From positions 1-32,965 of the forward strand of contig SVOA01000018.1 in the NCBI GenBank assembly GCA_015066635.1: a DNA stretch of 32,965 bases, read 5' to 3'. Positions 5,513 through 30,195 of this stretch are shown one piece after another. A model generated the notes under the pieces. The model was given only the letters and a program-made list of their open reading frames with translations, did not search any database and had not been told where the DNA came from. The translations under genes were made by a program, and so were the position numbers. Origin of the DNA: Oscillospiraceae bacterium (GTDB lineage Bacteria; Bacillota; Clostridia; Oscillospirales; Acutalibacteraceae). Each line of letters opens with the position of its first letter. Position 1 is the first letter of the stretch.

Positions 5513-5542
5513 ATTATATAACACCCGAAGGGAGTTAGTCAA
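5513..5542 (-). promoter_or_regulatory. Promoter of the lipoprotein-GH36 unit
   Basis: On the minus strand TTGACT (5542-5537) is followed after 18 bp by TATAAT (5518-5513). The start codon at 5476 lies 37 nt downstream of the -10. This places the longer in-frame ATG (5542) within the -35 and rules it out. Confidence 0.8.
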
Positions 5543-5571
5543 GGAAAGTTAATTCATATTTATATGTTTTG

Positions 5572-5592
5572 ATTACAATACAGTATTGTAAT
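5572..5592. promoter_or_regulatory. 21-bp perfect palindrome, probable operator
   Basis: The half-site ATTACAATAC (5572-5581) is repeated exactly inverted as GTATTGTAAT (5583-5592) around a single A. It covers the -35 hexamer of the yhhN-like promoter (5586-5591), where a bound dimeric regulator would block RNA polymerase. It also lies 30 bp behind the -35 of the divergent lipoprotein promoter. The TACA/TGTA arrangement recalls operators of winged-helix repressors, but no regulator gene is nearby to name it. Confidence 0.7.
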
Positions 5593-5614
5593 ATCTGACA
5601 GAATAATGTATAAT
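5586..5614 (+). promoter_or_regulatory. Promoter of the yhhN-like/mscS unit
   Basis: TTGTAA (5586-5591), a 17-bp spacer and TATAAT (5609-5614) lie 35 nt before the ATG at 5649. The -35 is embedded in the palindrome at 5572-5592. Confidence 0.75.
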
Positions 5615-5648
5615 ATTTCTGTATTAAATTCAGGAAAGAGGTTTGGAA

Positions 5649-6362
5649 ATGGCAGGAACTCATTATTATGTGATTGCTCTGACGGCGGGAATTATTCTGA
5701 CTTTTGTCTTTCTCATACTCAGAGTTAAAAAAGGCGGCTTTTTCGGACTGTTTTCAAAAACGGTTGCAAGCGTTGCGTTTATCGTAACCGCAATTACCGC
5801 CGCAAACGAAAAGAGGGCTATTCTTGAGTTTTCGCTGTTTATGATTCTGGGCTTTATGTTCGGAATGCTCGGCGATATATGGCTCGACCTTAAATGGATT
5901 TATGTTGAGGAGAAGGACTATTTCCTGTATGCGGGCTTTATTTCTTTCCTTGTCGGACACATTTTCTTTGTTTCGGCTATCGTGCACAATTCTCCGTGGA
6001 CGGTTCAGTCGGTCATAATCGCAGTTGCGGGTGCCGTTGCCATAGCGACCATAGCCGTACTGCTTGAAAAGCCGATGAAACTTGAGTACGGCAAATTCAA
6101 GCCCATAGTTTTCCTGTATTCGACAACTCTTTCTCTGACGCTGACCTCATCTGCGGTTACGGCGTTTATAACGGGCTTTGAAACTGCGTGGGTAGTAATG
6201 ACCATAGGCGCAGCGCTGTTCCTTTTCTCGGACCTCGTGCTTTCGGGTATGTACTTTGCAAAGGAACAGAATAAAAACACCCCTGTAAATGTCGTTATAA
6301 ACCACACTCTTTACTATGCGGCGCAGTTTATTCTTGCGAGCGCAATACATTTCGTTAAGTAA
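5649..6362 (+). CDS. YhhN/TMEM86-like integral membrane protein (lysoplasmalogenase family)
   Basis: A 237-residue protein of about eight membrane helices resembling the YhhN family (PF07947). Eukaryotic members (TMEM86) and some bacterial members hydrolyse the vinyl-ether bond of lysoplasmalogens. Family-like motifs are MLGDIWLDLKWI around residues 74-85 (conserved GD) and FLVGHIFFVSA around 101-111 (conserved GH), probably lining the active site. Plasmalogens occur in anaerobic Clostridia, which fits the enzyme role, but activity is inferred. The start is the ATG at 5649, 7 nt after AGGAAAGAGG (5632-5641); the TTG at 5643 is too close to that site. It is followed 14 nt later by mscS and probably co-transcribed. 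Confidence 0.7.
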   Translation: MAGTHYYVIALTAGIILTFVFLILRVKKGGFFGLFSKTVASVAFIVTAITAANEKRAILEFSLFMILGFMFGMLGDIWLDLKWIYVEEKDYFLYAGFISFLVGHIFFVSAIVHNSPWTVQSVIIAVAGAVAIATIAVLLEKPMKLEYGKFKPIVFLYSTTLSLTLTSSAVTAFITGFETAWVVMTIGAALFLFSDLVLSGMYFAKEQNKNTPVNVVINHTLYYAAQFILASAIHFVK

Positions 6363-6376
6363 TTTAAGGAGAAAAA

Positions 6377-7186
6377 ATGACTTTTAAAGAAGTTCTCGAT
6401 TATTCCGTCGGTTCGCTTACCGTGGGCAAGATTCTTGTCGCGGTGATAACCTTTGTTGTCGGATATATTGTAATTAAACTGATTACCGGCGCGGTCAACA
6501 AACTTATTGAGAAAACCTCTCTCGACGGGACGCTTCAGAAATACCTGAAGCTTGCCGTCAAGCTGATTCTTTTCTTTATACTTACGGTTATGACGGTTGA
6601 CGCGCTGGGCATTTCCCCGACAAGCCTGATAGCCGCTTTCTCGGTGCTCGGTCTTGCCGCGTCATTAGCAGTTCAGGACACGCTGTCAAATGTCGCGAAC
6701 GGAATTATGCTGCTCGTTTCCAAGCCTTTCCGCAACGGCAATTTTGTCGAGATAGACGGCGAGAGCGGTACGGTGGCATCCATAAGCCTTGTTCACACCA
6801 AGCTTGTAACCATTGATAACAAAATGGTCTTTGTGCCTAACAGTAAGGTTACTGCGGGGAAAGTCATCAACTACACCGCACAGCAGAGAAGAAGGGTTGA
6901 CCTTGAAATTTCGGCGTCTTACGACTCGCCGATTGACATCGTAAGAGCGGCACTGCTTGAAGCCGTTAAGGCGTCGGAGCTTTTCCTTGAAGTTCCCGAG
7001 AAGCCCTTTGCCGCGGTTATGTCCTATGATGACAGCAGTATAAGATATGTCGTCAGGGCGTGGACAGACACAAAAAAATACTGGCCCGCTTATTTTGCAC
7101 TTACGGAAAACATCAAAAAGGAATTTGATAAGGCGGGGGTTGAGATGACCTATAACCATATCAATGTCCATATGATAGAGAAATAA
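6377..7186 (+). CDS. MscS-family mechanosensitive ion channel
   Basis: A 269-residue small-conductance mechanosensitive channel that opens under membrane tension to release solutes on hypo-osmotic shock. Two N-terminal helices (about 16-38 and 55-80) precede the pore helix TM3, rich in Ala/Gly (AAFSVLGLAASLAVQDTLSNVANGI, about 86-110). The beta domain follows, with KPFRNGNFVEIDGESGTV and FVPNSKV, typical of PF00924, and then an alpha/beta C-terminal domain. The length is normal for YnaI/MscS-type channels without extra domains. AAGGAG (6366-6371) precedes the ATG by 5 nt. It is the second gene after the yhhN-like gene and ends at a weak terminator. Confidence 0.9.
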   Translation: MTFKEVLDYSVGSLTVGKILVAVITFVVGYIVIKLITGAVNKLIEKTSLDGTLQKYLKLAVKLILFFILTVMTVDALGISPTSLIAAFSVLGLAASLAVQDTLSNVANGIMLLVSKPFRNGNFVEIDGESGTVASISLVHTKLVTIDNKMVFVPNSKVTAGKVINYTAQQRRRVDLEISASYDSPIDIVRAALLEAVKASELFLEVPEKPFAAVMSYDDSSIRYVVRAWTDTKKYWPAYFALTENIKKEFDKAGVEMTYNHINVHMIEK

Positions 7187-7192
7187 TTGCAG

Positions 7193-7217
7193 GGCAGAAG
7201 AAATTCTGCCTTGTTTT
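7193..7217 (+). terminator. Intrinsic terminator-like hairpin after mscS
   Basis: GGCAGAA (7193-7199) and TTCTGCC (7204-7210) form a 7-bp stem with a GAAA loop, followed by TTGTTTT. It is positioned 7 nt after the mscS stop. Confidence 0.65.
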
Positions 7218-7252
7218 GTACCTTGAAAGGGACTTTGGTACCCTCGGACGGT

Positions 7253-7281
7253 TTGTGCAAAAACGCATTTAACGGTATAAT
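7253..7281 (+). promoter_or_regulatory. Probable rmuC promoter
   Basis: TTGTGC (7253-7258), a 17-bp spacer and a perfect TATAAT (7276-7281), 37 nt before the rmuC ATG. The -35 is weak. Confidence 0.55.
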
Positions 7282-7317
7282 ATCCTCAATTATGAAAGGA
7301 ACAGGAGAATAGAATCA

Positions 7318-8664
7318 ATGAGCGATTATATAATTATAGGACTGCTGGCATTGTGCACGGTAATCGGAATAATAGCCGTAATTCTGCTTTTCTCACTTAA
7401 AAAGGGCAGGGATAATCAGGAGCTTTTAAACTCCGTAGGGCTTATTACCGACAGAGTGAATAATATGTCGAGCGATATACAGAACAACTTTGCGTTAAAC
7501 CGCCGTGAAATGACCGAGGGCATAAAAGCTCAGAGGGAAGAGATTAAAAACTCGCTTGACTCAATGAATGAAAAGATGCAGAGAATGAATGAGCTGAGCC
7601 TTAAAAGCAGAATAGCGCTCAGTGAAACCGTCAACAAACAGCTTACGAGCATTATGGAGAAAAATGCCGAGCAGAATCAGACGCAAACCAAGATAATCGA
7701 GGAAAGCATAAATAAAATGCAGCTCTCCAACGAAAAGAAGCTTGACGAGATGCGCGCCACGGTTGATGAGAAGCTGACCTCAACGCTTACCAAAAGGCTT
7801 GACTCGTCCTTTAAGACCGTATCCGAACAGCTGGAGAATTTATATAAATCTCTCGGCGAGATGAAGGAGCTTTCAACGGGAGTTACCACCAATGTAACCT
7901 CGTTAAACAGAATTCTTACAAACGTCAAGGCGAGAGGCACCTGGGCAGAAGTTCAGCTGCAGGGCATACTCGACCAGACAATTCCCAATATGTATGAGAG
8001 GAATATAGCGACAGGCGACAGTCCGACGGAGAGAGTGGAGTTTGCCATCAAAATTCCCTCGGGCGAGAATTCAAAGGAATTCGTCTATCTTCCCGTTGAT
8101 TCAAAGTTCCCTGCGGAGGACTATATCAGACTTTGCGACGCCGCCGATATTGCGGACGCCGAGGGAGTTCAGAAGGCGAGAAAGGCGCTTGAGGACAGAG
8201 TCGAGGCAGAGGCAAAGCTGATTACAAAATATATTTCCGTACCTAAGACTACGCCGTTTGCGATTATGTATCTTGCGACAGAGGGACTTTATGCGGAAAT
8301 AGCGTCCTCAAGGACGGGACTTCCCGAGAGACTTCAGCAGAAGTACAATATAATGATAGCGGGTCCCACCACAATTACGGCGTTGCTCAATTCTCTGTCA
8401 ATGGGCTTCAAGACGGTTGCAATAAACGAAAAGGCAAACGAGGTCAGACTTATACTTGAGGCGACAAAGGCGCAGTATGTAACCTTTACGACGGTACTTG
8501 AGAAGGCAAAGCGCAAAATCGACGAGGCAGGGCGCACGCTCGACGATGCTCAGCACAGAAATTCGATTATTAACAAAAAGCTTAAAAGTATCGAGGATAT
8601 GGATTCGGATGAGTCGGACAGCTTGCTCGGAATTGAGGGCTTTACCGACACCGACGCAGAGTAA
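7318..8664 (+). CDS. rmuC: DNA recombination protein RmuC
   Basis: A 448-residue RmuC protein, implicated in limiting inversions between short repeats and presumed to be a nuclease. An N-terminal membrane helix (about 4-26, IIIGLLALCTVIGIIAVILL) is followed by a long coiled-coil region (about 30-190) rich in Glu, Gln, Lys and Asn. The conserved RmuC domain follows (about 190-430), with KARGTWAEVQLQGIL, LPVDSKFP, TPFAIMYLATEGLYAE, AGPTTITALLNSL and the C-terminal coil. The order and motifs are standard. CAGGAGA (7302-7308) lies about 9 nt before the ATG. It is a single-gene unit with its own promoter and a strong terminator. Confidence 0.93.
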   Translation: MSDYIIIGLLALCTVIGIIAVILLFSLKKGRDNQELLNSVGLITDRVNNMSSDIQNNFALNRREMTEGIKAQREEIKNSLDSMNEKMQRMNELSLKSRIALSETVNKQLTSIMEKNAEQNQTQTKIIEESINKMQLSNEKKLDEMRATVDEKLTSTLTKRLDSSFKTVSEQLENLYKSLGEMKELSTGVTTNVTSLNRILTNVKARGTWAEVQLQGILDQTIPNMYERNIATGDSPTERVEFAIKIPSGENSKEFVYLPVDSKFPAEDYIRLCDAADIADAEGVQKARKALEDRVEAEAKLITKYISVPKTTPFAIMYLATEGLYAEIASSRTGLPERLQQKYNIMIAGPTTITALLNSLSMGFKTVAINEKANEVRLILEATKAQYVTFTTVLEKAKRKIDEAGRTLDDAQHRNSIINKKLKSIEDMDSDESDSLLGIEGFTDTDAE

Positions 8665-8678
8665 AATTTTACAGTTTA

Positions 8679-8705
8679 AAGCCGTTCGGAAGAACGGCTT
8701 TTTTT
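8679..8705 (+). terminator. rmuC intrinsic terminator
   Basis: AAGCCGTTC (8679-8687) pairs perfectly with GAACGGCTT (8692-8700) around a GGAA loop, followed by TTTTT. It lies 14 nt after the rmuC stop. Confidence 0.9.
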
Positions 8706-8741
8706 GCTGCCGAAACAGGGAATAATATATTTGATAAAATA

Positions 8742-8770
8742 TTGACAAAGTCTTAAATAAGACATATAAT
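8742..8770 (+). promoter_or_regulatory. Perfect consensus promoter of hydEGF
   Basis: TTGACA (8742-8747), 17 bp and TATAAT (8765-8770), both perfect. The leader to the hydE ATG is only about 40 nt. No operator-like palindrome is seen, so expression may be strong and constitutive. Confidence 0.9.
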
Positions 8771-8816
8771 ATCAAATTGAAAAAGCAAAAAATATGTTCA
8801 AACAGCAGTTTTTGAT

Positions 8817-9866
8817 ATGGATAAAAAAGTAAATGAACTGATTTTAAAACTTAATGAAACCCATAGTCTGACAGAAGCGGAATATGAAACCCTGATTATC
8901 GGCAGAGGATATTTCGCAGGCGATATGCTGAGAAAACTTGCCGTAAAAACGAGAAAGGAAATATATTCCGATACCGTTTTTATCAGAGGGCTTATTGAGA
9001 TCAGTAATTTCTGTAAAAATGACTGTCTGTACTGCGGTATCAGAAGGAGTAATTCCGCCTGCAAACGTTACAGACTTTCCGATGATGATATTCTTGCCTG
9101 CGTTGACGAGGGATATTCGCTCGGCTTTCGGACATTTGTGCTTCAGGGCGGAGAGGACGCGCATTTTACGGACGACAGACTGTGCGGTATAATTAACGCG
9201 ATTAAGTCAGGACATCCCGACTGTGCCGTAACTCTTTCGCTCGGAGAGAGGACAAAGGAAAGTTACAGAAGGCTTTTTGAGGCGGGCGCCGACAGATACT
9301 TGCTTCGCCACGAAACTGCGGATAAGGTGCATTATGAGAAGCTTCATCCCGCGGAAATGTCCTTTGAGCACCGTATGCAATGTCTTGAGTGGCTTCGGGA
9401 AATCGGCTATCAGGTCGGTTGCGGCTTTATGGTAGGTTCTCCGCATCAGACGGCATCGTCGCTCGCGAAGGACCTGAAATTCATAGAGAGTTTTTCTCCG
9501 GATATGTGCGGCATAGGACCTTTTATTCCGCACAGCGCCACGCCGTTTGCAGGGTGCGACGCGGGTACGGTTGAATTAACCTGCTATCTGCTGTCGGTAA
9601 TAAGACTTATTAAGCCGAATATACTGCTTCCTGCTACGACGGCTCTCGGAACAGTTCATCATAACGGCAGGGAAAAAGGAATTGAGTCGGGCGCAAACGT
9701 AATTATGCCGAATCTTTCCCCGTTAAGCGTAAGAAAAAAATATGAGCTTTACGACAACAAAATATGTACGGGAGAGGAATCGGCGCAATGCGTTCAATGT
9801 ATTAAGGCAAGAATGGAAAGAATCGGTTACACGGTAGTAACCGACCGCGGAGATATTAAAAAATAA
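8817..9866 (+). CDS. hydE: [FeFe] hydrogenase H-cluster radical SAM maturase HydE
   Basis: A 349-residue radical SAM enzyme that helps build the organometallic diiron subcluster of [FeFe] hydrogenase, acting on the product of HydG. The cluster motif is Cys66-x3-Cys70-x2-Cys73 (FCKNDCLYCG), preceded by the strand VFIRGLIEISN typical of the BioB/HydE group. Later motifs are VLQGGED, RHETAD and GFMVGSPHQT, and an MPNLSP segment near the C-terminus. The length is normal. The ATG at 8817 matches the family N-terminus, but no Shine-Dalgarno is visible before it, which is odd under so strong a promoter. It is the first gene of hydE-hydG-hydF; no hydrogenase structural gene is in the window. Confidence 0.92.
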   Translation: MDKKVNELILKLNETHSLTEAEYETLIIGRGYFAGDMLRKLAVKTRKEIYSDTVFIRGLIEISNFCKNDCLYCGIRRSNSACKRYRLSDDDILACVDEGYSLGFRTFVLQGGEDAHFTDDRLCGIINAIKSGHPDCAVTLSLGERTKESYRRLFEAGADRYLLRHETADKVHYEKLHPAEMSFEHRMQCLEWLREIGYQVGCGFMVGSPHQTASSLAKDLKFIESFSPDMCGIGPFIPHSATPFAGCDAGTVELTCYLLSVIRLIKPNILLPATTALGTVHHNGREKGIESGANVIMPNLSPLSVRKKYELYDNKICTGEESAQCVQCIKARMERIGYTVVTDRGDIKK

Positions 9867-9887
9867 CAGATAAAGGAAGAAAAGAAA

Positions 9888-11336
9888 ATGGCAGTTTACA
9901 ACCCAAAATCATTAAAGGCGGAGGAATTCATCAACGATGAGGAAATCCGTGCAACTCTTGAATATGCAGAGGCAAACAAAAACAATGTCGAGCTTATAGA
10001 CAGTATTCTTGAGAAAGCAAGACCCGTAAAAACAGACAGAGGATGTGTCTGCTCGGGACTAACGCACAGAGAGGCTTCGGTACTGCTCGCGTGCGAAATT
10101 CCCGAAAAAATCGAAAAGATGTATGAGATAGCAGAGGAAATAAAGCTCGCATTTTACGGCAACAGAATAGTTATCTTTGCACCGCTTTATCTCTCAAATT
10201 ACTGCGTTAACGGCTGTCTTTACTGTCCCTATCATTTAAAGAATAAGCATATTCCCCGTAAAAAGCTTACTCAGGAGGAGGTAAAGGCGGAGGTTATCGC
10301 CCTTCAGGATATGGGACATAAGCGCCTTGCCATTGAAGCAGGCGAGGACCCCGTAAACAACCCCATTGAGTATATACTCGACTGTATTAAGACGATTTAC
10401 AGCGTTCATCATAAGAACGGCGACATCAGGCGCGTAAATGTAAATATAGCCGCTACAACGGTTGAGAACTACCGTAAACTCAAGGAGGCCGGAATCGGCA
10501 CATATATTCTTTTTCAGGAAACCTATCATAAGGAAAGCTATTTGAAGCTTCATCCCACGGGACCGAAGCACGATTACGACTATCATACCGAAGCTATGGA
10601 CAGAGCCATGGAAGGCGGTATTGACGACGTTGGCTTAGGAGTTCTTTTCGGACTTGAAATGTATAAGTACGAGTTTGCGGGACTTATTATGCACGCCGAG
10701 CACCTTGAGGCAGTTCACGGCGTAGGACCGCACACGATAAGCGTGCCGAGAGTAAAGAGAGCGGATGACATTGACCCCGATGCCTTTGACAACTCCATTT
10801 CAGATGAGATATTTGAAAAAATTGCCGCCTGTATAAGAATAGCGGTTCCGTACACGGGTATGATTATATCGACAAGGGAAACCGAAGAGGTACGTTCAAA
10901 GATGCTTAAAATCGGCATCTCTCAGGTTTCGGGAGGTTCGAGAACCTCTGTCGGCGGCTACACCGAGAAGGAAAGACCGCACGATACCGAGCAGTTTGAT
11001 GTTTCCGACCAGAGAACTCTTGACGAGGTTGTGCGCTGGCTTATGGAGAACGGGCATATTCCGTCATTCTGTACCGCCTGTTACAGAGCGGGCAGAACAG
11101 GCGACAGATTTATGAGTCTCTGCAAGTCGGGACAGATACTTAACTGCTGTCATCCCAACGCGCTTATGACTCTTACGGAATACCTTGAAGACTACGCCTC
11201 GGATGAAACCAAGGCGGTCGGTTATAAAATGGTTGAGGAGGAGCTTGAGCGTATTCCCAACCCCAAGGTTAAGGAAACCGCAAAGCAGAATATTGAGGAC
11301 ATCAAGGCGTCAAACAGACGCGACTTCAGATTTTAA
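9888..11336 (+). CDS. hydG: [FeFe] hydrogenase H-cluster radical SAM maturase HydG
   Basis: A 482-residue radical SAM tyrosine lyase that splits tyrosine into p-cresol and dehydroglycine and yields the CO and cyanide ligands of the H-cluster as an Fe(CO)2(CN) synthon. The radical SAM cluster motif is Cys106-x3-Cys110-x2-Cys113 (YCVNGCLYCPYH). The auxiliary cluster Cys motif in the C-terminal part is present (FCTACYR, C395 and C398, then C412). This distinguishes it from ThiH, which lacks the second cluster. AAGGAAGAAAAGAAA precedes the ATG. It starts 21 nt after hydE and is followed 3 nt later by hydF, a compact maturation operon. Confidence 0.95.
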   Translation: MAVYNPKSLKAEEFINDEEIRATLEYAEANKNNVELIDSILEKARPVKTDRGCVCSGLTHREASVLLACEIPEKIEKMYEIAEEIKLAFYGNRIVIFAPLYLSNYCVNGCLYCPYHLKNKHIPRKKLTQEEVKAEVIALQDMGHKRLAIEAGEDPVNNPIEYILDCIKTIYSVHHKNGDIRRVNVNIAATTVENYRKLKEAGIGTYILFQETYHKESYLKLHPTGPKHDYDYHTEAMDRAMEGGIDDVGLGVLFGLEMYKYEFAGLIMHAEHLEAVHGVGPHTISVPRVKRADDIDPDAFDNSISDEIFEKIAACIRIAVPYTGMIISTRETEEVRSKMLKIGISQVSGGSRTSVGGYTEKERPHDTEQFDVSDQRTLDEVVRWLMENGHIPSFCTACYRAGRTGDRFMSLCKSGQILNCCHPNALMTLTEYLEDYASDETKAVGYKMVEEELERIPNPKVKETAKQNIEDIKASNRRDFRF

Positions 11337-11339
11337 ATT

Positions 11340-12545
11340 ATGGCAAACTTAAATGAAACTGCTTCGGCACAGAGAATTCATATCAGCTTTTTCGGACTGC
11401 GCAACGCCGGTAAGTCGAGCGTTGTAAATGCAGTTACCTCACAGCAGCTTTCCGTTGTTTCCGAGGTTAAAGGCACTACAACCGACCCCGTAAAAAAAGC
11501 CATGGAACTGCTCCCTCTCGGACCGGTTGTCATAATTGACACGCCCGGTATTGACGATGAAGGGGAGCTCGGAGCTCTGCGCGTAAAGAAGGCAAAGGAA
11601 ATACTTGCAAAGACGGATGTCGCCGTGCTTGTAACAGATGTAACACGAGGTATGACCGATACCGACAGAGAGTTGATTTCGTCATTTGAGGACAGAAATA
11701 TTCCTTATATTATCGCCTTTAATAAATGCGATTTGGCTTGTGCACCCGAAACGGCAGTGGAAAACTCCGTTGCGGTAAGCGCAAAGACGGGCGAGGGAAT
11801 AAATGACCTAAAGCTCAGAATTGCCTCGCTCGGAAAACAGACGGAAAAGGAAAAATATATTATTGCCGACCTGACAGATGACGGGGATACGGTAATTCTT
11901 GTAATTCCGATAGACGCCTCGGCGCCGAAGGGCAGAATAATACTTCCTCAGCAGCAGGTGTTAAGAGAACTGCTTGACTTTCACAGAAATATTATATGCT
12001 GTCAGCCCGAGGAGCTTCCTTCGGTAATTGAGGGGTTAAAAAACAAACCGCGGCTTACGGTAACCGATTCTCAGGCTTTCCCGTTTGTCGCAAAGGTTAC
12101 GCCTTCAGAAATTAAGCTAACTTCATTTTCAATTCTCTTTGCACGGTACAAGGGAAGCCTGGAGGAGCTTGTCAGGGGAGCAAAGGCGCTCTCGGAACTG
12201 AAGGACGGCGACCGCGTGCTTATCAGCGAGGGCTGTACCCATCACAGACAGTGCGAGGATATAGGCACGGTAAAAATGCCGAGGATGATAAGCGAATATT
12301 CCCACGCAGATTTGAAATTTGATTTCACGTCGGGCGGAGATTATCCCGATAATCTGTCGGAATATAAAATCAACGTCCATTGCGGCGGCTGTATGCTTAA
12401 CGAAAGAGAAATGCAGAACCGTATCAGGCTTTCCCTTCGGAATTCCGTGCCGATAGTCAACTACGGCGTTGCAATAGCGCAGATGAACGGGATACTTAAA
12501 AGAAGTCTTGAGCCCTTCCCTGAAATACTGAAAATACTCGATTGA
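11340..12545 (+). CDS. hydF: [FeFe] hydrogenase H-cluster maturation GTPase HydF
   Basis: A 401-residue scaffold GTPase that receives the diiron precursor and delivers it to apo-hydrogenase. The N-terminal G domain has the P-loop GLRNAGKSS (19-27), the switch/G3 motif DTPG (67-70) and the base-specificity motif NKCD (128-131). The C-terminal cluster-binding domain keeps the diagnostic residues: Cys299-Thr-His301 and His347-Cys348-Gly-Gly-Cys351. All three functional parts are therefore intact. The start is 3 nt after the hydG stop, implying translational coupling. A large stem terminator ends the operon. Confidence 0.94.
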   Translation: MANLNETASAQRIHISFFGLRNAGKSSVVNAVTSQQLSVVSEVKGTTTDPVKKAMELLPLGPVVIIDTPGIDDEGELGALRVKKAKEILAKTDVAVLVTDVTRGMTDTDRELISSFEDRNIPYIIAFNKCDLACAPETAVENSVAVSAKTGEGINDLKLRIASLGKQTEKEKYIIADLTDDGDTVILVIPIDASAPKGRIILPQQQVLRELLDFHRNIICCQPEELPSVIEGLKNKPRLTVTDSQAFPFVAKVTPSEIKLTSFSILFARYKGSLEELVRGAKALSELKDGDRVLISEGCTHHRQCEDIGTVKMPRMISEYSHADLKFDFTSGGDYPDNLSEYKINVHCGGCMLNEREMQNRIRLSLRNSVPIVNYGVAIAQMNGILKRSLEPFPEILKILD

Positions 12546-14861: not shown

Positions 14862-15803
14862 TTACACAGCCGAAAAGATATTGAGATTTCGTATTTCGCT
14901 GTCCTTTATAAAGTCATTTACCGAATATGCGTGCTTTTCAAGGTCGCCGCAGACCGCCTTTGTGATTTCTTCCTTCTGAAGCTCGTCAATAATCATTGAG
15001 GCAATATCCTCGATAATGAAATATTTTGTTTCGGCGGTTTGTAACGAATTGTCGCTCGTTATGAGAAACTCAAAACTGTCGGCAAGCGAAGAGAGCAGGG
15101 GGAGAGTGCGCAGCATTCTGAAACTCCATTTGTAGTACGGCATATACGCGCGGTTGAGCAGAAATACCGTCCTCATACCCGCTTCTGCGAATTTCACAAC
15201 TGCAAGCTGTGCCGCGCCCTGCTCGCCGTGGTCAAGACAGCGTTTAAAGTTATACTGCCCTGCCTGAGCCATAACGATAAGGTTGCCCGCGAGTTTCTTT
15301 AAGCGTATATCCTCGGGCATATTGAGAATTTTGTTTCTTATGAGCGTAAATGCACCGCAGTCATCACGGAAAATCTCTCCGTTTGTGGCTTCCGAGAGAT
15401 AGAACTCGTCAATGGTAAGCCACTCTGCTGAGCTTAAATCTCCCGTGGGAGAGCCGACCTTTTCGGTGTAAAAATCAGACATCCTTATTACGCCGTGCCT
15501 GTTGCCGCCTGCAGGACTGAGAATACTTCTTTTAAGTCCCATATATTCCTTGGGAAGCTTTGAATACGCTCTCTCAAGCTGAAACGCCGTCTGTCTGTCG
15601 ATTATATCCTCGTCGGGAAGAAACATACAGAAGCCCGCCTCAAAGTCGTGGTCCTTTGAGATTTCATCGTCAAAGCCGTAGCACTCAGAGCCCGAGCCGA
15701 CAAGTCCGACCGCAATAAGTCCCTCATACTCGGGGAACTGCTCATGAAGCATCGGCGCTCCGAATTCGTTATAGAAGCTTCTGCAGATTTCAAGTCCTTT
15801 CAT
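14862..15803 (-). CDS. DUF4037 nucleotidyltransferase-fold protein
   Basis: A 313-residue protein with an N-terminal nucleotidyltransferase (NT) fold. GSGSECYGFDDEISKDHDFE (37-56) contains the GS loop and the paired acidic residues D45/D46 and D51/D53 that would bind Mg2+-NTP. The remaining two thirds is helical and matches DUF4037, as judged by DFYTEKVGSP and IRNKILNMPEDIRLKKLAGNL. It probably transfers a nucleotide to an unknown acceptor. Its start overlaps the upstream TPR gene by 14 bp, implying coupled translation and physical partnership. It is the last gene of the unit, ending at a shared terminator. Confidence 0.8.
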   Translation of the reverse strand: MKGLEICRSFYNEFGAPMLHEQFPEYEGLIAVGLVGSGSECYGFDDEISKDHDFEAGFCMFLPDEDIIDRQTAFQLERAYSKLPKEYMGLKRSILSPAGGNRHGVIRMSDFYTEKVGSPTGDLSSAEWLTIDEFYLSEATNGEIFRDDCGAFTLIRNKILNMPEDIRLKKLAGNLIVMAQAGQYNFKRCLDHGEQGAAQLAVVKFAEAGMRTVFLLNRAYMPYYKWSFRMLRTLPLLSSLADSFEFLITSDNSLQTAETKYFIIEDIASMIIDELQKEEITKAVCGDLEKHAYSVNDFIKDSEIRNLNIFSAV

Positions 15804-16632
15804 ATATTTCCCTTGCCCTTTCGTTCAATTCCTCGGAGAAGGCAAACCAGCCGTAATAAAGGAAGGTCGGCGCGCACTTCTCACATACAAATGCATAGTA
15901 GCCGTTCCTGTCAAGGGACGGGGTGTTGAGCAGATTTTCTGCCTTTTCAAGAGCAGAGTTTATTTCTTCTGCCGCCTTTTCAAGTCCGTCTCTCGCCTCA
16001 TAGAGATTTGCGAGGTTGAGATAGGTTATCGCCTCGTCAAGCTCTCCGTTTTCGGCGGCGGACATAATCTTAACCGCTTTGCGGTAGCAGTCAAGCGCCT
16101 CGCCGTAACGCCCGAGGTCGGTAAGCGTAAGCCCCATATTATTGTAAAGTCCCGCGAATTTGGTGTCGCTTGCGTCAAGCCTTTTTGCGTATGCCTCCTC
16201 GGCTTTGCGGAAAAGATCTATTGACTTTTCGGGTTCGCCGAAAGCCTTTAATACGGTTGCCGCGTTCAGATGTGTGGTGCCGTATATTTCGGTGCCATCA
16301 AGCGAAAGAACATCAAGCAGTGACAGCGCATTATTAAGCGCCTCATACGCCTCGTCCTTTTTTGAGAGCTTTCTGAAAAGTCCCATCATCTCGTTTCTGA
16401 TGAGCAGCTCTCCCTCTTTGTCGTTGCCGAACTGTGCTTCCGTAAGCCAGAATTTAAGATGCCTTTCAGCACCTTCGTAATCGTTGTGCGAAAAGTATTC
16501 GTCAAGTCTTGCGAGCATTCTGCCTGCGTCGATACGGCTTACGGGTTTATCGTCCCTGCCGTTTGCGTCCATACACAAAAGGCATCTCGGCTCCTCATAA
16601 TCATCTCTGTCGAGATATGTTTTGTCTGACAT
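15790..16632 (-). CDS. Tetratricopeptide repeat protein
   Basis: A 280-residue soluble protein made of helical TPR repeats. Clear units are seen around residues 104-215, e.g. THLNAATVLKAFGEPEKSIDLF, then NNMGLTLTDLGRYGEALDCYRKAV, then TYLNLANLYEARDGLEKAAEEI. The N-terminus has a CLLCMD segment. TPR arrays bind other proteins, and overlap with the DUF4037 gene makes that product the likely partner. GGAGAGG lies upstream of the ATG at 16632, and that ATG shares one base with the stop of the preceding 156-residue gene. Confidence 0.82.
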   Translation of the reverse strand: MSDKTYLDRDDYEEPRCLLCMDANGRDDKPVSRIDAGRMLARLDEYFSHNDYEGAERHLKFWLTEAQFGNDKEGELLIRNEMMGLFRKLSKKDEAYEALNNALSLLDVLSLDGTEIYGTTHLNAATVLKAFGEPEKSIDLFRKAEEAYAKRLDASDTKFAGLYNNMGLTLTDLGRYGEALDCYRKAVKIMSAAENGELDEAITYLNLANLYEARDGLEKAAEEINSALEKAENLLNTPSLDRNGYYAFVCEKCAPTFLYYGWFAFSEELNERAREIYERT

Positions 16633-24097: not shown

Positions 24098-24137
24098 TTG
24101 TTATCTATGAAAATATATCTTTTCGGAGGTTTTGAAT

Positions 24138-24992
24138 ATGGCAGACGAAATTGTCCGTTTTGAGGATAATCAGCCCGAAACAAAAAACAAAAGAGGCGCC
24201 AAAAAAGAAAAACGCTGGGCTTTCCCGCTGGGACTGCTTATTGCGGTGCTTACCGTTGTGGGACTTGTTACGGTTATCACGGCGGGTATCGGCGGAGTTA
24301 AAACGGCGGTTGACAGGGCAAAGCACGTTGACGATTACAACACTATGCTCGTTCCCGTTGTAATGAACGACCCCGATATGTTCGACGATATTACAAAGGC
24401 GGATATGAACCAGCTTCTTGACATCTCGATATGGTCAATACTTAAAAGTAATCTTTCGCCTGACTCGTATCAGTATTCCGAGGGTAATATGATTATTCCC
24501 GAGGAGGACGTTTCGGCGGAATTCGCAAAGCTTTTCGGCACGGAAATCACTCCCTCGCATTCAACTGTTACGGGTTACGGATACGATTTTGAATACAACG
24601 CGGCAGAGAAGCATTATATCATCCCTCTTACGGGAATTGAGCCCACCTATACTCCGAAGGTGGTTGATGTTGACAAAAAGGGCAATACCCGTGTGCTGAC
24701 GGTTGCGTATCTTGCAAGCGCAGGCTGGGCGCAGTCATCCGACGGCAAAATGGTTGCTCCCGAGCCCGAGAAATATGTCAAAATCACTCTGCGTGAGAAC
24801 GAAACGGGTTACTATATAAGCGCAATGCAGATGGCATCTGCTCCCGAAACGGCAACTACACAGCCGAGCGCAGAGCCCGAAACAACCACTGAACCCGAAA
24901 CCGAGGCTCTCACGGAGGCTCCGTCCGAGGAAACACCTGCAGAGACCGAGGCTCCTGCGGGCGAAGAAAATCAGACAGCGATAGCAGAATAA
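24138..24992 (+). CDS. Single-pass membrane protein with acidic Pro/Thr/Glu-rich tail, unknown
   Basis: A 284-residue protein without a family I recognise. A short charged N-terminus (ENQPETKNKRGAKKEKR-like) is followed by one transmembrane helix (about 29-52, FPLGLLIAVLTVVGLVTVIT), then a soluble extracellular domain of about 180 residues with mixed strands. The final 50 residues are a low-complexity ETTTEPETEALTEAPSEE-type repeat, typical of a wall-spanning spacer. There is no sorting LPXTG motif. GGAGG (24125-24129) lies 8 nt before the ATG at 24138, better placed than for the TTG at 24132. rpe follows 10 nt later. Confidence 0.7.
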   Translation: MADEIVRFEDNQPETKNKRGAKKEKRWAFPLGLLIAVLTVVGLVTVITAGIGGVKTAVDRAKHVDDYNTMLVPVVMNDPDMFDDITKADMNQLLDISIWSILKSNLSPDSYQYSEGNMIIPEEDVSAEFAKLFGTEITPSHSTVTGYGYDFEYNAAEKHYIIPLTGIEPTYTPKVVDVDKKGNTRVLTVAYLASAGWAQSSDGKMVAPEPEKYVKITLRENETGYYISAMQMASAPETATTQPSAEPETTTEPETEALTEAPSEETPAETEAPAGEENQTAIAE

Positions 24993-25002
24993 GGAAGATA
25001 AA

Positions 25003-25659
25003 ATGATTAAGATTTCACCTTCAATATTATCAAGCGATTACAGCATACTCGGCGCAGAACTCAAAAGGATGGAGGACTGCGGTGCTGATATGCTTCACAT
25101 TGACGTTATGGACGGGCACTTTGTGCCGAATATCACTCTCGGCGCGCCGATAGTCAAGTGTATAAGAAAGTCAAGTTCGCTTCCGTTTGACGTGCATCTT
25201 ATGATAAGCGACCCGTATAAATATATACCTGATTTTGCAAAGGCGGGCTCAGACATCATAACCTTCCACTATGAGGCGGACAGCGATATTGACGAAACCA
25301 TTGATTTAATTCACTCTTTGGGCAAAAAGGCGGGACTTTCGATAAAGCCGAAGACACCTGCAGAGGTTGTGTTCCCTTATCTTGACAAGCTTGAAATGGT
25401 GCTTGTTATGACCGTCGAACCCGGCTTCGGAGGTCAGTCATTTATGGCGGATATGATGCCCAAGGTCAGCGCCGTAAGAGCGGAAGCAGAAAAAAGAGGA
25501 CTTGACACGGACATACAGGTTGACGGCGGAATAAGCGGCTCGACCATAGGTATTGCCGCTAAGGCGGGTGCCAACGTCTTTGTGTCCGGAAACGCTATTT
25601 TCTCGTCAGATGACGCGGCTGCAACAATAAGCGAATTCAAAGCCATAGCAGGGGAGTAA
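25003..25659 (+). CDS. rpe: Ribulose-phosphate 3-epimerase
   Basis: A 218-residue TIM-barrel enzyme interconverting D-ribulose 5-phosphate and D-xylulose 5-phosphate in the pentose phosphate pathway. The metal-site motifs are LHIDVMDGHFVPN (31-43) with His32 and Asp34, then DVHLM with His65. The catalytic acid lies in QVDGGIS (about 172-178) and the phosphate loop in MTVEPGFGGQ and the C-terminal SGNAIF. The length is normal. AAGGAAGATAAA precedes the ATG. Its 3' end overlaps the convergent MecA-like gene by 23 bp. Confidence 0.95.
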   Translation: MIKISPSILSSDYSILGAELKRMEDCGADMLHIDVMDGHFVPNITLGAPIVKCIRKSSSLPFDVHLMISDPYKYIPDFAKAGSDIITFHYEADSDIDETIDLIHSLGKKAGLSIKPKTPAEVVFPYLDKLEMVLVMTVEPGFGGQSFMADMMPKVSAVRAEAEKRGLDTDIQVDGGISGSTIGIAAKAGANVFVSGNAIFSSDDAAATISEFKAIAGE

Positions 25660-26152
25660 GCTCTGTTAAGACGGTACTGTGCTCAAGTATGACAAGACTT
25701 TGAATTTCTGAAACAGCCGCGGCCGTACCGAATTCGGAAAGCATGGTTTTTAGATAATTATTATCTAAAATTCCTTTTATCAGGACAAGCTTTTTTCCGT
25801 TTACTTCGCAGTAAACTGCCGAGCGTATGCTTTGACGTTTTGGCTTCAGCGCTTCGCATATTCCGAAAAGGCAGTCGGCTTTTTCAACGCTTACCGAAAG
25901 CAACGCTCTTTTGCGGCGGTAAAGGTATCGGGGCATTATTCTGACGGCTAAAAACGCCGAGCCGTCCGCAGAGGTAAAGCACTCGACGGCAACCCTCACA
26001 TTTCCCGTTACAGGCGGTTTTGAGTACGCTGTAAGCTCGCGCGCAAGTCTGCGAATGCCCGACGCGTCCATACGGTCAATTCCGTAATCGGCTGTGTCGC
26101 GGCTGCTTAATTCGGCTATAATAAAGCGACTGCTGTTTATATGTATTCTCAT
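25637..26152 (-). CDS. Divergent MecA-like adaptor protein
   Basis: A 171-residue protein with resemblance to MecA/YpbH, the adaptors that deliver substrates to ClpCP and regulate competence. An N-terminal segment (MRIHINSSRFIIAELSSRDTADYGID) recalls the MecA N-terminal domain. The C-terminal half (GKKLVLIKGILDNNYLKTML, then SEFGTAAAVSE, then LEHSTVL) recalls the last strand-helix unit of MecA. Between them lies a shorter, basic stretch than usual (MPRYLYRRKR) in place of an acidic linker. The ATG at 26152 is preferred over one at 26218 because the family N-terminus starts there, though the Shine-Dalgarno GAAAGG is a distant 12 nt away. The call could be wrong. Confidence 0.5.
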   Translation of the reverse strand: MRIHINSSRFIIAELSSRDTADYGIDRMDASGIRRLARELTAYSKPPVTGNVRVAVECFTSADGSAFLAVRIMPRYLYRRKRALLSVSVEKADCLFGICEALKPKRQSIRSAVYCEVNGKKLVLIKGILDNNYLKTMLSEFGTAAAVSEIQSLVILEHSTVLTELTPLLWL

Positions 26153-26248
26153 ATCGGCTTTTTGCCTTTCAATAAAGATTATATAAATAATTTTAAAATT
26201 CCCGACTAAGCATTTCAATAAATAAATTATGGAAACAGAGGTGGTATT

Positions 26249-27307
26249 TTGAGCAAGGAAAATAAAAAATCCTCTCCCGTTTCTCTGAGCGAGGAGGAAC
26301 AGCTTGAAATAAAAAACACCCGTAAATATATGCTTGATTTACTGGTTATATCCGTTGCGCCTGCAGTTATGGCGTGCTACTATCACGGGCTTAGAGCTTT
26401 GCTTTTAATCGCGCTCGGTATTGTCAGCGCCGCGGTCTGCGAGAAGGCTGCCGCAAAGCTTTATAAAATGAAATCTTATCTTACCGACCTTTCGGCGGTT
26501 ACGCTTGGCATGGTTATAGCTCTGTGCCTGTCGGCTTCGTCCCCGTGGTGGCTCGTTGTTACGGCTGTAAGCTTTGCCGTGTTTGCGGTCAAGATGCCCT
26601 TCGGCGGAAACGTCAATTCAATGTTTTCTCCCGTGGCTGCCGCAGTCGCGTTTGTAAGCATCTGCTGCCGCGAGGTAATGTTCTCATATCCCGCAGTCGG
26701 CGCAGGGCTTAAAACGGCGGTATTCGGAAGTGAGGACTATGTTGCGGGTGAATCTGTTGCCGATATGCTCTTAAAGGGTAATTCTATAGGAAACAGCATA
26801 ATAAACTACATTGATATACTCATAGGAAACGTGCCCGGACCAATGGGCGCGGTTTGTGTGCTGGCGCTTTTAGGCGGACTGATTTATCTTGTAATCAGAC
26901 GTCCGAAAACAGCCGTTATTTCACTTTGCTATTTTGCGTCTTGCGCGGCGGTTGCGCTCATATTCCCGAGAGTAACTACGGGAAGGCTGATTTCCGTGTT
27001 TATGGAGCTGAGTTCGGGACTGCTGTTTATCGGCGGACTTGTAATGCTCTCCAACGAGAGAATTGCTCCCGAAAAGCTTTCGGCAAGAATTCTTTACGGA
27101 ATCTGCGCCGGACTTGCAGTAATGACGGTACGGCACATAAGCTCATTTGAGGACAGCACGGCGTTTGTAATTCTGATTATGAATTCCGCGGCGCCCCTGT
27201 TTGACAAAATTCCGAAAATGAAACTCGGCAAAAAGAAAAACGAAAAAATCGAGATAGAAATAATCAGAGATACTTCCACGGAGAACGGAGGTGCTGTAAA
27301 TGGCTGA
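26249..27307 (+). CDS. RnfD/NqrB-like membrane protein with degenerate flavin site
   Basis: A 352-residue multi-helix membrane protein of the RnfD family, which in working Rnf complexes carries covalent FMN in an ion-translocating ferredoxin:NAD+ oxidoreductase. Family motifs seen: DLSAVTLGMVIALCLSASSPWW (80-101) and the NxxFxPxxAxxAF loop (GGNVNSMFSPVAAAVAF, 119-135). The flavinylation motif D-x-x-S-G-A-T is replaced by D163-Y-V-A-G-E-S169, so the acceptor Thr is a Ser in an altered context. A TTG start follows AGAGGTGG (26237-26244). The RnfE-like gene overlaps by 8 bp; no RnfC or RnfG gene is adjacent. Electron transfer is doubtful. Confidence 0.82.
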   Translation: MSKENKKSSPVSLSEEEQLEIKNTRKYMLDLLVISVAPAVMACYYHGLRALLLIALGIVSAAVCEKAAAKLYKMKSYLTDLSAVTLGMVIALCLSASSPWWLVVTAVSFAVFAVKMPFGGNVNSMFSPVAAAVAFVSICCREVMFSYPAVGAGLKTAVFGSEDYVAGESVADMLLKGNSIGNSIINYIDILIGNVPGPMGAVCVLALLGGLIYLVIRRPKTAVISLCYFASCAAVALIFPRVTTGRLISVFMELSSGLLFIGGLVMLSNERIAPEKLSARILYGICAGLAVMTVRHISSFEDSTAFVILIMNSAAPLFDKIPKMKLGKKKNEKIEIEIIRDTSTENGGAVNG

Positions 27308-28361
27308 CGGCACTATCAGAGAGGGCATCAGAAACAGTGCCCTTATCAAGAATCCCGTTTTATTTGAGGCGATAGGCATAGCGCCCGTCGTCGCCATGGC
27401 TGTATCTGTAAAAACGGCAATAATGCTTTCCGTTATTTCAACGGCGGAGCTTATTATCATTGAAAGCTTTACCTGTCTTTGTTTAAAGAAAATCAAGCAT
27501 TGGTTCAGAGTGCTTATCTATGCGCTTTTCGGCGTATTTATAAACGTGCCTCTGTTTATGTTCTTTACAAAGATAGCGCCCAACGAAACGGCAAACGTCA
27601 GCATATTTATACCTCTTATTGCGGTCAACTCTCTTGTGGCTCTGCACTGTGAGAGGGTAGCGGTCAGAAAGAACTTAAAGGATACTCTTGTTGACGCGGT
27701 TTCCGCAAGCGTGGGATATGTCTTTATTGTATTTGTTACGGCAATTATCAGAGAGATACTCGGCAGCGGTACCTTTTACGGTTACAGTCTTAAACTTCCC
27801 GTCAGGCTTTCGGGACTGTTGCTTCCCTTCGGAGGTTTTCTTCTGCTCGGCTTTATTGCCGCGCTTTTCAAGAGGATAATCAAAAAGGGCTATCCCGACG
27901 AGAATCCCGAGGCGGCGTTTAATCTGTCGGAGATTTCGGATACTCATATGGAGAATATCAGAGATATAATTTCCGAAGGCAATAATCCGTTTGACGAATT
28001 ATTTGCAGACAGTAAATCTGACATATATTACGAGCCGGAGGATATAGTTTCGGAAAAGCCTGCGGTTAAAAAGAAAGAAAAAACCAAAAAGGAAAGACGC
28101 TCCGTGAAAAAGACGGAGGACGTTCCCGAGATACAGAAAACAACTCTTGTCAATAACGAGAATATTGAGATTTATACCGTTGAGGGAAGCACCGCGGAAA
28201 CAGAAAAGCCCGCGACACACGCAAGGTATGAATCGGAGTTTGACGATATTCTCAATGAACTTGAAAATTTCAAAAAGGGAAAAGAGCAGGACGCCTCAGC
28301 CGAGGATGAAGCGCCTGCCGCGGAAAACAACGAGCCTCAGAAGGAGGGTGACGGAGAATGA
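27300..28361 (+). CDS. RnfE/NqrD-like membrane protein lacking cluster cysteines, with long cytosolic tail
   Basis: A 353-residue protein. Residues 1-200 are an Rnf-Nqr family (PF02508) membrane domain related to RnfE: NPVLFEAIGIAPVVAM (18-33), then IPLIAVNS (104-111), then IREILGSGTFYG. In functional RnfE/NqrD the first motif is LGxCP and the second VNC, cysteines that bind an intramembrane [2Fe-2S]. Here they are Ala28 and Ser111. Residues about 205-353 are an added hydrophilic tail rich in Lys and Glu (VKKKEKTKKERRSVKK), absent from normal RnfE of about 200-230 residues. It overlaps the D-like gene by 8 bp and the A-like gene by 4 bp. Confidence 0.83.
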   Translation: MADGTIREGIRNSALIKNPVLFEAIGIAPVVAMAVSVKTAIMLSVISTAELIIIESFTCLCLKKIKHWFRVLIYALFGVFINVPLFMFFTKIAPNETANVSIFIPLIAVNSLVALHCERVAVRKNLKDTLVDAVSASVGYVFIVFVTAIIREILGSGTFYGYSLKLPVRLSGLLLPFGGFLLLGFIAALFKRIIKKGYPDENPEAAFNLSEISDTHMENIRDIISEGNNPFDELFADSKSDIYYEPEDIVSEKPAVKKKEKTKKERRSVKKTEDVPEIQKTTLVNNENIEIYTVEGSTAETEKPATHARYESEFDDILNELENFKKGKEQDASAEDEAPAAENNEPQKEGDGE

Positions 28362-28939
28362 GAATTATAACAGAACTTTTACTCGCAGCCGTCTATGCCC
28401 TCGTACTGCAGAATTTTATCTTTACGGGAGGCTACGGAGCAAGCGAAGCGATAAGGATGGCGGCAAAGCCCAAACAGCTTTACGTTATGAGCTTCTTTAT
28501 CACGGTCTTTTCGACATCCGCTTCCGTTATCTGCGTCATACTTGAGCAGATAAGACGGGTACGAATGCTCGGTATTATAGGGCACGCAATTATCTTTATA
28601 CTTGTGCTTGCGTTTGTATATATTATCGCGCTTATAGTGATAGTTTACGGTTTGAAAGCTAAACAGAGAACCCGCAGAAGGCTCGGAATTGCGGCTTTCA
28701 ACACGCTTGTTCTTGCAGTTCCCTTCCTTAACTACAGGGCAGGCTTCTCAGTACCGGAGGCGATAGGTTCGGGCATAGGCTCGGGACTTGCGTTCGCGCT
28801 TGCCGCCTTCTTAATAAATCTCGGGCTTCAGAGACTTCAGAAAAGCGATATTCCCGACGCCTTCAAGGGCACGCCGGCGATATTTATCTATGTTGCCATG
28901 CTGTCGCTCGGATTTGCAGGCATTCTCGGAACACTATAA
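28358..28939 (+). CDS. RnfA/NqrE-like membrane protein lacking cluster cysteines
   Basis: A 193-residue protein with about six helices and the normal length of RnfA. The C-terminal signature (DIPDAFKGTPAIFIYVAMLS then LGFAGILG, 164-191) is strongly RnfA-like, and LVLQNFIF (16-22) matches the start of the family. The first cluster cysteine position (LGxCPF in functional RnfA) reads YGASE, near Ser29. The second (TNC) reads FNT (114-116). The only Cys, C59, is elsewhere. ATGA overlap (4 bp) with the E-like gene implies coupled translation. It probably forms an inverted pseudo-symmetric pair with the E-like protein, as in Rnf, but without the [2Fe-2S] cluster. Confidence 0.83.
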   Translation: MRIITELLLAAVYALVLQNFIFTGGYGASEAIRMAAKPKQLYVMSFFITVFSTSASVICVILEQIRRVRMLGIIGHAIIFILVLAFVYIIALIVIVYGLKAKQRTRRRLGIAAFNTLVLAVPFLNYRAGFSVPEAIGSGIGSGLAFALAAFLINLGLQRLQKSDIPDAFKGTPAIFIYVAMLSLGFAGILGTL

Positions 28940-28960: not shown

Positions 28961-30133
28961 ATGCTATTTCAGAACAACGGCAAACAGCCGAGAAAAAGAA
29001 GTTATTACCCGTTTTCAAAGAATTATCCGACAAAGACGGGCAATACCTATGAAATCGGCGAAAGCAGGACAAAGAGAAAAAGAGAAGAGCGCAACAGAGT
29101 GATATTTTATGTTTCGCTCATCTTTTTGTTTGCTCTTGTGTTTGTAATTGCCTGTGTTTCGCTGACTCTTTCAAGGCGCCCGATACAGCTTAACAATACG
29201 GGCAAGGCCGCGCAGTACGACGGCAAACTGAAAGCGCTCTGTCTGCCTGACGACGCGCTCGGCGGAGGAATCGCATATACTCTTTTCAAGGGCGAGCTTA
29301 CGGATATTAAGGCAAATGCGGTAGTTATAGATTTCAAGACCGACGACGGAATGCTTCACTACAATTCCTTAAATGAGGATGCTCTGAGCATAGGGGCGTG
29401 CGCAACAGTTTACGGTAATGCAAATAACGTAATTCACGCTCTTAAAGATGACGGCTACAAAATAATTGCAAGAGTTCACTGCTTTAAAGACCCTCTTGCG
29501 GCGTCTGTGATTAACGGCGCTGCCGTAAAGGAAGCCGACGGGGAAACTGTCTGGCTCGACAACAGCGCGCAGAAGGACGGAAATCCCTGGCTCAACCCCT
29601 TCTCAGACAAGGCGAAAGAATATCTGTACGGAATTATATCCGAGTGCGTTAAGACGGGTGCGGACGTCGTGCTGCTTGACAGCGTATGCTTCCCCGATTC
29701 GTCCAGAGTTTCGGGTGCGGTATTTCCGGGAGAGGAAACGGAAACACAGAGCCGTAATACCGCGCTTCACAACTTCGTCAGCGAGGCGGCAAGCCTTTGC
29801 GGAGACATACCTCTTGCGCTTTACCTTAACTGCGACAGTGCGCTTAACGGCAACGATATGCTCTATGCCGGCTCAATGTTTGACAGCGAAGCGATTTTCG
29901 ACGCGGTGGATTTCAGAAACAGCGCAGTTGACGGCGAAATAAAAATTGACAGCACGGTATATATGAAGGACGAAATTAACGAGGGACTTTGTATAGGAAA
30001 AAGCGTCCCGATCTTAAAGGAAAAGCTTGACGATAACTTCTCGTCAAAGGCGATTATCCCGATTATCAGCGATAAGGAATATATAGAGATGCTGCAGAAT
30101 CTCGGCATTGAGAATTATATCCTCGTAAAATAA
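28961..30133 (+). CDS. Membrane-anchored DUF4015 glycoside hydrolase-like protein
   Basis: A 390-residue protein with a basic cytosolic N-terminus, one transmembrane helix (about 47-69) and an extracellular TIM barrel resembling PF13200 (putative glycosyl hydrolase, DUF4015). Motifs: NAVVIDFKTDDGMLHY, IARVHCFKDPLAA, a WLNPFSDKAKEYL segment and GADVVLLDSVCFPD. The last stands where typical members have FDxIRFP, so one active-site position is altered. It may act on cell-wall or capsule polysaccharide. AAAGGG lies before the ATG, and it begins 21 nt after the RnfA-like stop, suggesting one transcript. A strong terminator ends the unit. Confidence 0.78.
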   Translation: MLFQNNGKQPRKRSYYPFSKNYPTKTGNTYEIGESRTKRKREERNRVIFYVSLIFLFALVFVIACVSLTLSRRPIQLNNTGKAAQYDGKLKALCLPDDALGGGIAYTLFKGELTDIKANAVVIDFKTDDGMLHYNSLNEDALSIGACATVYGNANNVIHALKDDGYKIIARVHCFKDPLAASVINGAAVKEADGETVWLDNSAQKDGNPWLNPFSDKAKEYLYGIISECVKTGADVVLLDSVCFPDSSRVSGAVFPGEETETQSRNTALHNFVSEAASLCGDIPLALYLNCDSALNGNDMLYAGSMFDSEAIFDAVDFRNSAVDGEIKIDSTVYMKDEINEGLCIGKSVPILKEKLDDNFSSKAIIPIISDKEYIEMLQNLGIENYILVK

Positions 30134-30152
30134 GCACATTAAAAAAAGACAC

Positions 30153-30184
30153 AAAAATCCCCGCTTATGTAAGCGGGGATTTTT
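30153..30184. terminator. Strong bidirectional terminator
   Basis: AAAAATCCCCGCTT (30153-30166) pairs perfectly with AAGCGGGGATTTTT (30171-30184) around ATGT, a 14-bp stem. It serves the DUF4015 gene and the convergent LRR gene. Confidence 0.92.
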
Positions 30185-30195
30185 ATTATGCTGTT

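Follow-up and report, generated by a model that had tools for sequence, protein, structure and literature searches.

The window analyzed here, a stretch of 32,965 nucleotides (contig SVOA01000018.1 of assembly GCA_015066635.1), comes from an Oscillospiraceae bacterium of a gut-dwelling group and forms contig 9 of a genome of 1.73 Mb that is 97% complete. Positions 26249–28939 of its forward strand carry three genes related to rnfD, rnfE, and rnfA, which a previous, sequence-only reading had taken for an Rnf-derived membrane complex without redox cofactor sites. Gene calling, Pfam searches, and motif alignment identified an RnfD/NqrB-like membrane subunit of 352 amino acids (26249–27307), with a TTG start at 26249 preceded by AGAGGTGG. 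It is followed by an RnfE/NqrD-like subunit of 353 amino acids (27300–28361), consisting of a core with six transmembrane (TM) segments and a charged C-terminal tail of approximately 155 residues, and by an RnfA/NqrE-like subunit of 193 amino acids (28358–28939), both assigned by Pfam and alignment. The overlaps of 8 and 4 bp were as previously described and all three reading frames were intact. All Pfam scores exceeded their cut-offs (PF03116, 187 bits for the D-like protein; PF02508, 96 and 64 bits for the E-like and A-like proteins), and the E-like and A-like proteins aligned to solved RnfE/NqrD and RnfA chains.

None of the four positions that bind the [2Fe-2S] cluster in Rnf is a cysteine in the window trio: the ligand columns hold Ala28 and Ser111 in the E-like protein and Ser29 and Thr116 in the A-like protein, exactly the residues named by the sequence-only reading, while the canonical Rnf copy of the same genome retains all four cysteines. 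Across 57 complexes in which both A and E could be scored, the window included, ligand cysteines numbered zero in 27 and one in 30, compared with four in 15 of 16 canonical complexes and two in the remaining one. Among 80 named relatives, site 2 of the A-like protein was Thr throughout (80/80) and site 1 was never Cys; in the E-like protein, Cys occurred at site 1 in 57/79 and at site 2 in 0/79 (one was a gap). The D-like subunit carries DYVAGES where an SGAT-type flavinylation motif would be expected, again in agreement with the earlier description, and Val in place of the flavin-site Arg. The flavinylation motif pattern was absent from the D-like proteins (0/57 and 0/78) vs. 15/16 matches in canonical ones, and the Arg of the flavin mononucleotide (FMN) pocket (Arg130) was lost in 57/57. 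The features that define Na+-NQR, namely the [2Fe-2S] ligands of NqrD/E and the flavin Thr of NqrB, are both missing from the window proteins in the same columns. The NCBIfam models for rnfD, rnfE, and rnfA scored the window proteins at 145.8, 64.9, and 45.7 bits, all below the cut-offs of 207, 213, and 229 bits, vs. 312, 236, and 251 bits for the canonical copy.

Reading of the neighborhood bore out that RnfB, RnfC, and RnfG do not adjoin the trio in the window. The genome does encode a full canonical rnfCDGEAB operon, located on contig C36, and an ApbE gene; an FMN_bind search of this genome returned a single gene, inside the canonical operon, leaving no RnfG for the trio. The complete operon would allow the D-E-A proteins to serve as a spare set mixing with the canonical RnfB, RnfC, and RnfG of the same cell. 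This is very improbable, since the membrane [2Fe-2S] relay would still be missing and the canonical operon carries its own D, E, and A. Such mixing was rejected for five genomes in which RnfG is missing and a second E/A pair does not exist. These are G196 (99% complete, 2 contigs) and G041, G064, G078, and G117 of genus g7 (family f7); each holds a single E/A pair with 0/4 ligand cysteines and no FMN_bind gene. Borrowing of canonical subunits is thereby excluded in these genomes, and with it the rescue by RnfB, RnfC, or RnfG encoded elsewhere that the sequence-only reading had set against its own claim. Its proposal that the complex has been put to a different use from the ferredoxin:NAD electron transfer of canonical Rnf is supported by these five genomes lacking RnfG and by the conservation of the complex; transport and surface-polymer assembly, the uses that it named as examples, are candidate roles.

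The gene order in genus g7 was C-D-E-A-DUF4015 in 4/4 genomes (L260, positions 5532–11145, in G041, and L266–L268), and this operon was the sole Rnf-type set of each genome. The D subunit had Asn at the Thr site in 4/4 and Lys at the pocket Arg, and the C subunit (4/4) lacked the GGAGFP motif for FMN and NADH and kept two CxxCxxCxxxC motifs. No ApbE was found in the four g7 genomes. It is present in G196, where a Ser-linked flavin may be possible. Genome G105 of the sister genus g75 contains a canonical C-D-G-E-A set with four cysteines, the D Thr, GGAGFP, and ApbE. The C and D subunits of G041 reach the NCBIfam cut-offs (295 vs. 246 and 296 vs. 207 bits) despite their lost cofactor motifs, so automatic annotation would call them Rnf.

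The sequence-only reading had proposed to look for the same trio in related genomes. A close A-like relative was found in 35/36 genomes of the genus, counting that of the window, with 48–79% identity across the 34 others; the genome without one, G016, has a completeness of 81%. Canonical RnfA was found by the same search in 34 of the 35. The neighbors were usually rpe (ribulose-phosphate 3-epimerase) and often a DUF4015 gene, which followed the trio in 34/35 genomes of the genus, the remaining one being cut by the contig end. Locus L078 retains A only, at a contig end, and was counted for A and left out of the D and E counts. Outside the genus, the order rpe-C-D-E-A without B and G occurred in other genera of family f1 and in f25 and f5, rpe-D-E-A in f23 and parts of f1 and f25, and C-D-E-A without rpe in f7. 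A C-like subunit occurred in 15 and an adjoining rpe in 55 of the 57 complexes. The wider family is thus a C-D-E-A set without B and G, from which the window lineage has lost C. The f25 genomes examined that had two D copies carried one canonical and one rpe-linked copy in 9/9. A search at a fixed threshold matched 47/395 genomes of the order, a figure that serves as a guide only: five f7 genomes, of which one is canonical, and an f20 genome are counted in it, and some known members, such as G021 and G022, escape it. Across the class (393 genomes), matches exceeding 300 bits were confined to the order, the best one outside it scoring 268 bits; as g7 genomes with a canonical-looking score have lost the sites, the bit score is likewise a guide, and members elsewhere may be hidden.

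Three further arrangements were seen. In a genome of genus g36, a lipoprotein-like gene (L122, 5418–6191) lies between the D-like and E-like genes. At locus L136 (11467–16315), a few kb away from the complex, a putative RnfC-like, possibly PduS-like, gene lies close to others of putative microcompartment type; this RnfC-like gene (14984–16315) was excluded from the C counts. In G054 of family f20, a lone and very divergent pair of RnfC-like and RnfD-like genes (L261, 5931–8173) has no adjoining E/A.

The trio is kept under purifying selection in the genus: in ten pairs, the ratio of nonsynonymous to synonymous substitution rates (dN/dS) was 0.04–0.21 for D, E, and A vs. 0.04–0.12 for rpe. The cofactor losses are no chance event, given their recurrence in 57 complexes and the low ratios for D, E, and A in the ten pairs. 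In a tree including 10 of the 35 D sequences of the genus, the trio-type D separated from canonical D with support of 100/100; with g7 and further sequences added and 6/35 from the genus, the trio-type clade was supported at 99/95. The g7 D sequences grouped with canonical D at 93/73, and their placement with the other clade was not rejected (approximately unbiased test, p-AU 0.206), so that the cysteine-less forms may have one origin or more. In one relative, G057 (L073), the E frame is short, at 134 amino acids, as might be expected of a decaying paralog or an assembly artifact. Such an explanation for the trio is hardly credible given its presence in other families and in 35/36 genomes of the genus (truncated at a contig end in one), dN/dS values far below 1, and the well-supported split from canonical D. 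The pseudogene explanation was rejected on the wide occurrence and low dN/dS, as the sequence-only reading had anticipated from the intact frames.

The C-like subunits qualify the claim of cofactor loss. All eight [4Fe-4S] cysteines were present in 15/15 and the GGAGFP motif in 0/15, and the FMN-binding Pfam domain fell below its cut-off in 3/5 proteins scanned, compared with 173 bits for a canonical C. The absence of redox cofactor sites therefore holds for the window trio and not for the family as a whole, because the C-like subunit of its relatives has two [4Fe-4S] motifs. Their retention in these 15 and in the 4/4 g7 genomes would suit a shortened redox path, in which the [4Fe-4S] clusters of C hand electrons to D, where riboflavin bound non-covalently or FMN linked to Ser would take them up, and from there to an extracellular acceptor. 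The flavinylation Thr column of the 57 complexes held Ser in 45 and Thr in 1 (the column was left out for the 80 named relatives owing to an alignment shift), ApbE is able to act on Ser in other proteins (PMC10979944), and an ApbE gene is present in G196 as well as in the window genome. The riboflavin-site residues Asn124 and Asp248 were also kept in 16/22 and 14/22 D subunits outside the genus. Within the genus, they were found in 0/35 and 4/35, respectively, and the window lineage lacks C. With the pocket Arg130 lost in every complex, no RnfG-like acceptor in five genomes, and no ApbE in the g7 genomes, which have Asn at the Thr site (4/4), this path is unlikely. A Ser-linked flavin, which the predominant exchange of Thr for Ser would allow, is itself unlikely.

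The gene directly downstream of the trio (28961–30133, + strand) encodes a membrane-anchored DUF4015 protein, a putative glycosyl hydrolase by its Pfam match, which adjoins the complex in distant relatives, too. It starts 21 bp beyond the A-like gene and is probably part of the same operon, and a hairpin scan placed a terminator-like structure with a 16-bp stem behind it (30151–30186; listed on the – strand, with a palindromic stem). DUF4015 adjoined the complex in 46/80 named loci and was accordingly rejected as an obligate partner. In loci without it (L176–L219), a putative amylase-like gene of approximately 620 codons often came next after the A-like gene. Upstream, rpe (25003–25659, + strand) was the most persistent neighbor according to domain search and neighborhood comparison, and a MecA-like adaptor gene (25637–26155, – strand) stands between it and the D-like gene. 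The window copy of this frequent but non-constant neighbor had no Pfam match, and copies in two relatives matched PF05389 at 59 and 66 bits; since it is absent from many relatives, it was rejected as a core partner. By neighborhood comparison, a single-TM protein assigned to no family (24132–24992, + strand) is retained ahead of rpe in some members of the genus. Farther away, at 8817–12545, three adjoining genes resemble hydE, hydG, and hydF of [FeFe]-hydrogenase maturation, a putative naming made by eye.

The tail of the E-like protein corresponds to window positions 27885–28358, and the tails of its relatives vary widely. In the C-less lineage their ends are often formed by a short segment that is both acidic and amphipathic (e.g., YxSEFDDILxEL), which suggests a cytosolic binding partner; in the window protein, a single-chain structure prediction modeled a helix at residues 309–334.

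Several features of the membrane core were retained. The Asn preceding the second ligand position was kept in 57/58 A-like and 54/57 E-like proteins (Asn115 in the window A-like protein). Arg70 and Glu118 of the window E-like protein correspond to R67 and E115 of Acetobacterium woodii RnfE, a pair that takes part in Na+ binding and whose R67A exchange abolishes growth on H2 + CO2 (PMC11889175). Each residue was kept in 35/35 genomes of the genus, and the pair was kept in g7 as well. The half-helix core of RnfA/E has been likened to Na+/solute symporters (PMC12174285). The U-shaped electron path described for Rnf (PMC12174285, PMC11889175) cannot run without an in-membrane cluster, RnfG, and RnfB. 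The DUF4015 neighbor points to a role at the envelope; this domain has been found fused to a YkyA/PdcF domain, relatives of which act with peptidoglycan deacetylases (PMC12700454).

We consider the trio to be an Rnf-derived membrane core that no longer works as an electron-driven pump and would act as an alternating-access, cation-coupled transporter serving the envelope, a tentative reading to which we give a probability of roughly 0.4. E and A would retain the pseudo-symmetric dimer with its broken half-helices and, having lost the electron, would keep alternating access for cation-coupled transport, with D as a scaffold or second pore; the transport step is one that we infer from the retained residues and the fold. 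The work of the complex would be coupled to the cell envelope, the presumed site of action of the co-encoded glycosidase-like DUF4015 protein. Other observations weigh against this reading. Outside the genus the RnfE pair is not universal (R in 18/22 and E in 11/22 complexes), and further RnfA residues were kept rarely or never: E88 in 0/35 within the genus and 1/23 outside, K32 in 0/35 and 3/23, T111 in 0/58, and the A-side gate L22 in 0/35 and 9/23. The loss of E88, K32, T111, and the gate Leu throughout the genus speaks against the Na+ mechanism having simply been carried over. Moreover, DUF4015 was not found in 34/80 named loci (some of them truncated by the contig end), where other genes come next.

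A serious rival, though somewhat improbable in our estimate, is that the D-E-A complex transports nothing and serves as a platform in the membrane, on which the DUF4015 protein, other envelope enzymes, and, by way of the C-like subunit or the E tail, a cytosolic partner are anchored or activated. Co-encoding of DUF4015 in several families fits such a scaffold, as do the acidic amphipathic ends of the E tails with the helix modeled at 309–334 and the precedent of NqrA, an RnfC descendant without cofactors whose structural role was kept (PMC4014512). Conservation is strongest, however, in A, a purely membrane-embedded subunit (48–79% identity in the genus; lowest dN in 8/10 pairs), and the conserved Asn residues of the half-helices would be needless in a mere anchor. 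Under the transporter reading, the C-like subunit of relatives, with two [4Fe-4S] motifs and no FMN/NADH motif, would lie at the cytosolic side in a regulatory or structural role; in the window lineage, which lost C, the E tail may substitute for it. An extended version, in which a redox ion pump retained its A/E pore, shed its electron wiring (in-membrane [2Fe-2S], D flavin, G, and B), and became a non-redox transporter working with the DUF4015 enzyme and its fuller form is gated from the cytosol by the [4Fe-4S] C-like subunit lacking NADH binding, i.e., an iron-sulfur-sensing transporter, is possible but doubtful.

The complex shares homologous D, E, and A subunits and their fold with Rnf (RnfCDGEAB; A. 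woodii, 9eri; Clostridium tetanomorphum, 7zc6), from which it differs by the absence of B and G from the set and the loss of the [2Fe-2S] ligands, the D flavin motif, and the FMN/NADH motif of C. Na+-NQR (NqrABCDEF) has a homologous membrane core, and its NqrA is a C-type subunit persisting without cofactors (PMC4014512). There, NqrD/E retain their cluster and NqrB/C their flavins; here, the reverse applies, with Fe-S motifs kept in C and the cofactor sites lost from the membrane core. Two-subunit Nqr/Rnf-like systems (PMC8238504, PMC10979944) likewise have an RnfD-like protein without the flavinylation Thr, but they fuse a PF00175 NAD-binding domain to D and have an FMN-bind partner, whereas the window D contains PF03116 only and the sole FMN_bind gene lies in the canonical operon. 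RsxABCDGE of Escherichia coli is also an Rnf homolog with a task beyond energy conservation, yet it still transfers electrons. Within the open-licence PubMed Central literature searched, we found no description of a cysteine-less Rnf-type complex, no paper on Rnf with DUF4015, and none on RnfA/D/E lacking cysteines in Ruminococc- taxa; the excerpts of a 2025 review (PMC12174285), a study of Nqr origin (PMC4014512), and two flavinylation surveys (PMC8238504, PMC10979944) mention no such complex.

The Na+ route in Rnf and Nqr (through A/E or D) and the need of an electron for the conformational switch are debated (PMC12174285, PMC11889175). A natural core that selection maintains without cluster ligands and D flavin motif lends itself readily to testing in that debate, and if it is true that this core still moves ions or solutes, the conformational switch would be independent of the electron. 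The family is also a warning against homology-based annotation: because the C and D subunits of G041 score as RnfC and RnfD with their cofactor motifs lost, predictions of energy conservation may be wrong for such bacteria.
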